From a virus, in the IMG/VR virus record IMGVR_UViG_3300021127_000016, positions 1 through 40,405 of that record: DNA of 40,405 bases. One strand, given 5' to 3'. The translations under genes and the position numbers were made by a program. Every line of letters starts with the position of its first letter. Position 1 is the first letter of the stretch. Shown one piece after another: positions 26,073-40,405 of this stretch. The notes below the pieces were generated by a model. The model saw nothing but the letters and a program-made list of their open reading frames with translations, had not been told where the DNA came from and did no database searches.

Positions 26073-26240
26073 TTATGGTTTTTTAAATACAAGTATATTT
26101 TGGTGAACCTTAACGAGTTTTTGCGATTTCATGTTTCCAGATGCCCTCATTGAAGCAGATGCAATGGAATTCAACAATATACCTTCGTTGTAAAAATTCA
26201 TACCACATTTACAAAACGCAGAAATCGTGTCTGGTACAAA
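26073..26240 (-). pseudogene. In-frame C-terminal remnant of the DNA methyltransferase
   Basis: Past the TGA at 26241..26243 the same frame continues open for 55 codons to TAA, encoding FVPDTISAFCKCGMNFYNE, then ILLNSIASASMRASGN and KLVKVHQNILVFKK. The HQNILVF ending is the conserved last strand of this methyltransferase family. It therefore belongs to the upstream gene; together they would make 291 residues. Confidence 0.82.
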
Positions 26241-26948
26241 TCAGATATAATTTCCATTTTTATCTCTCACCTCGCCAACCACAAAAACTGCATATCCACC
26301 GCGTTTTAATTTACTGCAACTTTTGGCTATTATTTGTTCATAGCATTCCAAAAATTTGCTGTAAGGCATATTCGAAATATCTCCTTGCAAATCCGAATAC
26401 ACTTCCAAATCTGCATACGGCGGACAACTGAAAACCATGTCAAAATCATGCGAAAACGTGTCGTTCAAAACAACATTTGAATCGCCAGCATACCATTGTG
26501 GCTGATTATCGACTGCGAGAATTTCCAAGGCGTTTTCGCGATTTGCGTCAATTTGTTCTTGCCGTATATCAATACCCGAATATTTATATCCTAATTTGTT
26601 GGCAACGATTCCGCGCACCGAACCACCTGCAAAAGGGTCAAGTATTGTTCCGTTTGTCGGACAAAACCACGTGTATAAAACTTCGCACAAAGCTGGGTCG
26701 AAAATAGAAGTGTCGTTCATATTCATTTCGCCGTTTGTAGGTTTTTCTTTTAACCAATCGGACATATTGAAAGTTTTTGCGTCGCGACCGATTTCTGATT
26801 TTATACCGAGTGTTTTCCAAAGTTTTTTGCGCTTCTGCCAATTACCGCTCTTGGTGTCCAATACCGAAAACGGCGGTTCAATGAATTTATCGCGCAAAAT
26901 GACGTCTTTTATTATTTCCTGTCCAAATAAATCAAATTCTTTATTCAT
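26241..26948 (-). CDS. DNA methyltransferase, interrupted by an in-frame TGA
   Basis: 235 residues. Motif I is ILDPFAGGS (102-110), the SAM site; motif IV is SCPPY (174-178), the catalytic loop of adenine-N6 or cytosine-N4 enzymes; VFVVGEVRDKNGNYI precedes the stop. Related enzymes continue for about 55 more residues, and those residues are present here in the same frame beyond the TGA. The gene is thus either recently broken, read through, or carries a sequencing error. It would modify phage DNA to evade restriction or regulate it. It lies in the early operon between the ATPase and the annealase. Confidence 0.87.
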   Translation of the reverse strand: MNKEFDLFGQEIIKDVILRDKFIEPPFSVLDTKSGNWQKRKKLWKTLGIKSEIGRDAKTFNMSDWLKEKPTNGEMNMNDTSIFDPALCEVLYTWFCPTNGTILDPFAGGSVRGIVANKLGYKYSGIDIRQEQIDANRENALEILAVDNQPQWYAGDSNVVLNDTFSHDFDMVFSCPPYADLEVYSDLQGDISNMPYSKFLECYEQIIAKSCSKLKRGGYAVFVVGEVRDKNGNYI

Positions 26949-29399: not shown

Positions 29400-29567
29400 A
29401 TGAACGCCGAAACAATTAAAAACGCTGTCGCAGACAGCGGATATAAACAAAAGTACATTGCCGAAAAAATAGGCATTACACCCACATATTTGAACAACAT
29501 ATTGAACGGCAAAAGGCCGTTGAAATTACATATTGAAAAAAAGATTGTTGAATTACTTGGATTGTGA
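29400..29567 (+). CDS. Cro/CI-type (XRE) helix-turn-helix regulator
   Basis: 55 residues: MNAETIKNAVADSGYKQ, then KYIAEKIGITPTYLNNILNG as the helix-turn-helix, ending IVELLGL. It is a bare HTH domain with no extra dimerisation or ligand domain. It is the only gene on the plus strand, divergent from the early promoter and overlapping the phospholipase 3' end by 15 bp. Genes so placed usually set the early/late or lysis/lysogeny switch. An upstream ATG at 29376 would put the promoter inside the gene. No integrase accompanies it, so it may only time transcription. Confidence 0.88.
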   Translation: MNAETIKNAVADSGYKQKYIAEKIGITPTYLNNILNGKRPLKLHIEKKIVELLGL

Positions 29568-30425
29568 TTGAAACGCCAATTCGACGGCTTCTTGACCGCT
29601 CGAATACAATGCCTCCTCCTGTGCAACGCTCAATCCGAAATCTGTTGCCGATATGCCCAGACCGTCAATGCAAATAGTTCGTTGCGTGTTTTCTGGTTGT
29701 TTCCCCAACACGAAGTTTTGCGCATTCAATAGCATTGACCATTGCGCAGAAACCATTTTTTTAATTTCTCCAAATGCAAGATTTGTACGCGGTTGTGGTT
29801 GACCGAGGTCGTTGAAATGTATGCCAATTGTCTTGTCGTTTACTCCGTCCGTGTCGAACGCGTCAATTGGGTAATTGTAAACCAATCCGCCGTCATTGTA
29901 AATGTCGCCTTCCAATTTATACGCCCTAAAAAACCACGGAATCGACATTGAACACCGCACCGCCTCCCAAACTTTTATATTTGGCGTCAAATCGGCGTCA
30001 AATCGCTTTATTGATTGGGTATTCATGTTACACGCGAACACCACAAGATTCTTAAATCCCTTTGCCTTCCAATCGGCAAACGTTGAGTTTTCTTCACCAG
30101 TTGCGCCGTGAATCAATTCCTTCAGCCAACGTGAAAATGTCGTCGCTGGGTGCAATCCATATTCTGAAAAATCATTCGGAAAATCAAAAACATTTCCGTC
30201 CTCGAAACTTTTGAAATCAGTTGATTTTATTATCGTTTTAATTTGTTGCGAACCGTAACCGCATGAAAATAATGTCCCCACAATTGCACCTGCCGAAACA
30301 CAAGCAACGTTTTTAATTTGTTTGTCCAATCCGTATTTTTCGAAAACTGACAACGCCCCAGCCTCGGCAATGCCACGGACACCGCACCCGACAAGGGCAA
30401 GATTTTCAACGTTTTTTAAATTCAT
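29553..30425 (-). CDS. Patatin-like phospholipase in the lysis region
   Basis: 290 residues. The oxyanion loop is GCGVRGIA (13-20), the nucleophile motif is CVSAGA with Ser 44 (the first Gly of GxSxG replaced by Cys), and the dyad Asp is in YNDGG (Asp 178), so the catalytic pair is intact. Such enzymes free fatty acids from membrane phospholipids. Its ATG overlaps the stop of a holin-like protein, placing it in the lysis cassette, so helping break the inner or outer membrane at lysis is likely. A CBASS-type defence role is less likely without a cyclase gene. Confidence 0.88.
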   Translation of the reverse strand: MNLKNVENLALVGCGVRGIAEAGALSVFEKYGLDKQIKNVACVSAGAIVGTLFSCGYGSQQIKTIIKSTDFKSFEDGNVFDFPNDFSEYGLHPATTFSRWLKELIHGATGEENSTFADWKAKGFKNLVVFACNMNTQSIKRFDADLTPNIKVWEAVRCSMSIPWFFRAYKLEGDIYNDGGLVYNYPIDAFDTDGVNDKTIGIHFNDLGQPQPRTNLAFGEIKKMVSAQWSMLLNAQNFVLGKQPENTQRTICIDGLGISATDFGLSVAQEEALYSSGQEAVELAFQSQSK

Positions 30426-39957: not shown

Positions 39958-40405
39958 TTATGCGCCCGACGGATTCAAGAAAGTTTCTTGCAAATTCAAT
40001 GTCCAAATTTGATAAAACCGAACCTTTATTTCAGCCTTTCCTGACGACCCTGATTGCATTGGCGGTTTGAACTTTATTCGTTCCATTATAGCAGGTGAAA
40101 CGCCGTCAGGTGCGAAAATTTGGTTGTTTGTGACCACGTCAAGAAAGTTTTGCCACGTAAACGGCACACTCGCAAACGTTTTCGTCATTACCTGCGCACC
40201 ATAAGGACGGTCGGAATAAGCAGGATTTATTTGTTTTGGGACAATTGAATTCACATAATGAAAACCGTTCCAATGCGCCAATGCGCTTTCCAATGTAGCG
40301 TTGTTTGGGTCAAGTTTCGTGAAACGTGGATTTGTTGACGGTTTTATACACAAAATCTTCGCAACCTGAAAATGGTCTGCCGACAACATCATCATTCCAA
40401 TTCTA
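39958..40405 (-). CDS. C-terminal part of the tail-tip protein (continues from 1..1640)
   Basis: The frame enters at the right window edge through the repeat copy and ends in WTLNLQETFLNPSGA with its stop at 39958. The MMM at 40387..40395 is internal, as the same frame continues upstream in the circular genome (reading ATIENRIG-MMM). The last 145 residues are beta-rich with no catalytic motif. The unit gene is 1989 bp, 662 residues. Confidence 0.85.
   Translation of the reverse strand, partial: RIGMMMLSADHFQVAKILCIKPSTNPRFTKLDPNNATLESALAHWNGFHYVNSIVPKQINPAYSDRPYGAQVMTKTFASVPFTWQNFLDVVTNNQIFAPDGVSPAIMERIKFKPPMQSGSSGKAEIKVRFYQIWTLNLQETFLNPSGA
40307..40405. repeat. Right copy of the 99-bp terminal direct repeat
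   Basis: Identical to 1..99. In the circular genome these bases occur once. Confidence 0.95.

Follow-up and report, generated by a model that had tools for sequence, protein, structure and literature searches.

The window analysed here is the whole 40,405-nt IMG/VR virus record IMGVR_UViG_3300021127_000016. It carries an exact 99-base direct repeat at its two ends (positions 1-99 and 40307-40405) and therefore looks like a complete genome of approximately 40.3 kb. Its genes include those for a terminase, a portal protein, a primase with a BT4734-like domain, a helicase and a RecE-like exonuclease, which indicates a tailed phage, and its host is probably a member of the Bacteroidota. A patatin-like phospholipase gene (29553-30425; Pfam E 9.2e-29) adjoins small ORFs with no assigned function.

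On the minus strand, translation of positions 26948..26073 revealed an ORF running from 26948 to 26244, which encodes 235 residues and terminates at a TGA at 26241-26243 (codon 236; with this stop, the 5′ part of the gene occupies 26241..26948). Beyond the TGA the same frame continues for 55 further codons (26076..26240), ends in HQNILVFKKP and is closed by a TAA at 26073-26075. The latter is the normal end of the family: in the listed relatives the gene stops no more than a few codons away from it. This layout is as the original prediction had described it. An ATG at 26201 marks a possible internal restart and would open a 42-residue ORF (26073..26201). Among the papers listed by the literature searches, none dealt with this gene or with a TGA at its codon 236.

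In profile searches the 235-residue part matched phrog_12517 at positions 31-245 of 316 (E 7e-73) and phrog_498 at 352-540 of 633, and Pfam assigned N6_N4_Mtase to it (E 6.1e-10). The C-terminal 55 residues, searched alone, matched phrog_498 at 543-596 of 633 (E 6e-15) and phrog_12517 at 247-301 of 316 (E 1.6e-11). Direct matches to phage records numbered 25 for the longer part and 19 for the shorter one. Since both halves match the same families collinearly and are joined at the stop, the frame after the stop is far beyond a chance open frame. It had been proposed to be the normal C terminus of the family, and the similarity whose absence would have spoken against this proposal is present. 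Both halves also give the profile match over the catalytic domain that marks a member of phrog_12517. The uninterrupted frame expected of a working member, a feature outside the profile, is lacking here because of the TGA at 26241-26243. By codon usage the 55-codon part appears weakly coding: 42 of 765 wrong-frame windows of 55 codons score as high, and 7 of 153 coding windows score below it. The case for coding after the stop thus rests on homology.

Matches to solved structures and Foldseek matches say ‘SAM-dependent methyltransferase’ and nothing narrower, and in NCBIfam the methyltransferase had no match above the curated cut-offs. We consider the predicted product to be a DNA methyltransferase of the phrog_12517 family with, by Foldseek, a class I methyltransferase fold; methylation of DNA is likewise a prediction. 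Among known phage proteins of phrog_12517 / phrog_498, Listeria phage B054 gp77 and Enterococcus phage phiFL3A gp36 have a catalytic domain that is matched collinearly by both halves of the window gene, but here the frame is broken by the TGA at codon 236. Moreover, gp77 and gp36 carry an N-terminal extension annotated as ParB-like, whereas the window gene and its closest IMG/VR relatives do not. According to the available part of PMC12704722, where the window gene is not treated, phage proteins often join a ParB-like domain to a methyltransferase domain.

When the read-through protein was modelled with AlphaFold2 (mean pLDDT 69.3, pTM 0.74), a methyltransferase core was obtained, the fold being named by Foldseek. 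The elements encoded 3′ of the stop in this predicted fold are a helix (237-247) and two strands (251-258 and 278-289). They are the final helix and the final two strands of the catalytic core; the 235-residue product would lack them and so should be inactive. Activity could be regained if the 42-residue ORF, whose ATG lies 13 codons 3′ of the stop, were made separately and completed the fold as the second part of a two-part enzyme. Yet helix 237-247 would then be left out and no relative is split at codon 236, and we give this arrangement next to no credence. A different kind of interruption was seen in Pseudanabaena phage Pam4 (982-3471 of the fetched locus), where more than 200 residues interrupt, in frame, a methyltransferase of the same family; the protein carries the annotation of a PLP-dependent enzyme. 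Erythrobacter phages ZS04 and R6L match likewise in three spaced pieces. Perhaps in these phages one domain is inserted inside another.

Homologues were collected with three scans of viral contigs using the protein or its alignments, one scan of genome contigs, and six phage records. The set is a sample, comprising the best 80 per scan. At least 245 loci had the gene; removal of 31 sequence duplicates left 214 distinct homologues, 213 of which cover codon 236 (in the remaining one the contig edge precedes the column). Those with at least 60% identity, 92 in number, are referred to as close relatives. Comparison of the codon among relatives, a check proposed earlier, showed a sense codon in all 213 homologues and a stop in none. 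The column holds Gly in 123, Asn in 55, Asp in 26, Ser in 4, Arg in 2, and Glu, Ala and His in 1 each, so that Gly, Asn or Asp account for 204 of the 213; neither Cys nor Trp occurs in any of them. Among the close relatives it is Gly in 91 and Asp in 1. When the site was searched with a degenerate DNA pattern, the picture was the same: the Gly version of the pattern was present in 111 of 352 fetched loci, a figure in which some contigs were fetched twice and many loci are without the methyltransferase, and the TGA version in no IMG/VR contig. The stop is hence unshared by relatives, as would be expected of a nonsense pseudogene.

No near-identical genome was found that could show the same codon. 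A DNA pattern from the end of the methyltransferase gene gave no matches, and the set searched may lack records that are very close to the window. Megablast of window positions 20001-40405 against phages returned nothing, and the neighbouring ATPase used as a query recovered no near-identical genome. With the primase as query, 26 loci at 55-61% identity were obtained, and the methyltransferase was not seen in the stretches fetched around them.

The segment 3′ of the stop is at least as conserved as the 5′ segment, with no sign of decay. Identity to the 92 close relatives was 0.783 after the stop vs. 0.708 before it, and was at least as high after the stop in 80 of the 92. For the after-minus-before difference the window ranks 66 of 93 sequences. 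On a fixed tree its terminal branch measured 0.243 before the stop and 0.183 after it. The resulting C/N branch ratio (0.755, rank 42 of 62 tips) exceeds the median of 0.462, so that the branch is relatively longer after the stop than for the median tip; it is within range, but leaves room for slight relaxation after the stop. The little or no decay expected after a recent nonsense mutation is therefore what we observe, and an undecayed segment implies that the stop is recent, is an error, or is bypassed by continued translation. Conservation alone would fit readthrough or an error equally well.

We then considered how TGA is used in this genome. Among 47 gene-like ORFs picked in the window, TAA ends 27, TGA 17 (the methyltransferase ORF included) and TAG 3. 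TGA thus closes 16 of the 46 other ORFs, half of which (8) have a 4-base overlap with the following start, in agreement with the earlier argument that other genes stop at TGA and that the code as a whole is unchanged. Under code 25 or code 4, many in-frame TGA codons and disuse of TGA as a stop would be expected; instead, it ends 17 of the 47 ORFs. Reading of TGA as Trp was rejected, the column being Trp in none of 213 homologues and TGA being a genuine stop in the 16 ORFs. Selenocysteine was rejected too, given a column without Cys and the lack of both a hairpin and an Rfam element. No tRNA or tmRNA gene was found in the window, and a suppressor tRNA was discarded for this reason.

The glycine at this column in 91 of 92 close relatives raises the question of whether UGA is read as glycine (code 25) by the host, or by the phage during infection, in which case the codon would simply be glycine. 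In this respect the TGA resembles those described in the available part of PMC10746230 for phages of Gracilibacteria and Absconditabacteria; the window differs from these phages in having one such TGA only and in using TGA as a normal stop elsewhere in its genome. A homologue that does place TGA at glycine columns was also present in our set (L150; JAGCEE010000318.1, positions 946-1755, from a MAG labelled Clostridia, yak omasum). Its match has 17 in-frame TGA codons and no other stop; 9 of the 17 lie at columns whose most frequent residue is glycine, and 9 GGN codons occur in the same match. To judge by its codons this homologue truly uses TGA as glycine, and it illustrates what real recoding looks like in this gene; it is UGA-glycine DNA in a Clostridia-labelled bin, and its source is probably an Absconditabacteria or Gracilibacteria phage placed in the wrong bin. 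Against its 17 TGA to 9 GGN, the picked ORFs of the window hold a single in-frame TGA to 760 GGN codons, and TGA serves as the stop of the 16 other ORFs. In the part of PMC10746230 available, the predicted hosts of certain phages include both code-25 and standard-code bacteria, and nearby back-up stops are described for such phages. In the window, three of the 16 other TGA-ended ORFs have frames that stay open for 40, 67 and 120 codons beyond the TGA, so that back-up stops are not everywhere nearby. We consider glycine decoding very improbable here.

Programmed or tolerated readthrough, in which some ribosomes insert a residue at the UGA to give the full enzyme and the stop sets a low dose, would account for the conserved frame 3′ of the stop. 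Some basal readthrough of UGA by tRNA-Trp is known to occur. Yet a conserved stop, or Cys or Trp at the column, as expected for readthrough or selenocysteine, is missing: the homologues and IMG/VR contigs do not share the stop, and the column is the Gly/Asn/Asp one described above. The stable RNA structure expected just 3′ of such a stop was not found either (26263-26173, z -0.49; 52 of 200 shuffles as stable), and no Rfam family matched. Together with the lack of a tRNA gene, these results make readthrough improbable. It is about as doubtful, and marginally more so, that the stop is kept on purpose, with the single UGA decoded at a low rate as glycine or another residue, in the host or after a switch during infection, so as to give a controlled dose of methyltransferase. 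For readthrough, glycine decoding and the two-part enzyme alike, the intact C-terminal frame is all that speaks positively in their favour. Of the three options offered in the original prediction, programmed readthrough is accordingly disfavoured by the unshared stop, the glycine column and the lack of a hairpin or suppressor tRNA, while a nonsense mutation and an assembly error remain.

Single stops were also seen elsewhere in the gene in 2 of the 92 close relatives, as in-frame TAA codons at codon 214 (L229, 2998-3693) and at codon 276 (L207, near 2240). In the wider set, a Cupriavidus homologue (L110) has a TAG at codon 123; a homologue with two TAA at the N-terminal edge of its match (L140) and the recoded L150 were excluded from the count of nonsense alleles. 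Stops at differing positions and of differing codons are as expected of unrelated accidents rather than of a programmed event, although they could themselves be errors. As a control gene we used the primase, for which 72 distinct matches contained 0 stops in 31,310 codons, vs. 2 in 25,837 codons of close viral methyltransferases (n = 90 distinct). The comparison is suggestive only of the methyltransferase being broken more often, the counts being too small to separate the two genes.

These counts bear on the main rival explanation, an assembly or sequencing error, according to which the real phage has a sense codon at position 236 and an unbroken gene. In sequence, a nonsense mutation and an error of base calling or assembly would be indistinguishable, and this explanation is in keeping with full conservation 3′ of the stop and with one affected codon in an otherwise clean gene of an IMG/VR-classed virus record. 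It is weakened by the rarity of stops in the collection, as far as the small counts above allow, and by the fact that the listing for the window shows no other gene split within one frame. We regard an error as a real but distinctly less probable explanation.

The best explanation, to which we assign a probability of roughly 0.63, is the sporadic loss of an accessory phage methyltransferase via a recent single-codon nonsense mutation. The gene is otherwise intact over the full family length, the stop is unique to this genome among the relatives gathered, and the sequence 3′ of it shows no erosion. Translation would stop at codon 235, and the protein, deprived of the final helix and the final two strands of its Rossmann-like core, should neither fold properly nor methylate DNA. 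Such a loss may be tolerated because phage methyltransferases of this kind would protect against the restriction of some hosts only, and with tolerated loss phage populations would acquire and keep broken alleles at low frequency. Phage orphan methyltransferases were reportedly the subject of Murphy et al. 2013. The available part of PMC10370329, in which the window gene is not treated, deals with them in connection with restriction by the host. The allele resembles sporadic nonsense alleles of accessory phage genes in its single stop, unshared position and intact remainder, as well as in having two close relatives with other single stops, and we found no difference from them.

What we see is most likely common gene damage rather than a novel reading of the genetic code. 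By itself it means little, since it adds just another accessory phage gene to those that are broken or mis-sequenced; it cautions that a TGA at a glycine column is no evidence of recoding when neighbouring genes end in TGA. Together with the stops in two close relatives, it brings the distinct single-stop alleles to three in 93 close methyltransferase genes (that of the window and those of its 92 relatives). With reads, these alleles could help to address the natural frequency at which such methyltransferases are lost by phages. Three other loci of the homologue set (L024, L035 and L222) have a second, diverged methyltransferase copy within a few kilobases of the first, with 35-37% identity in L024 and L222.
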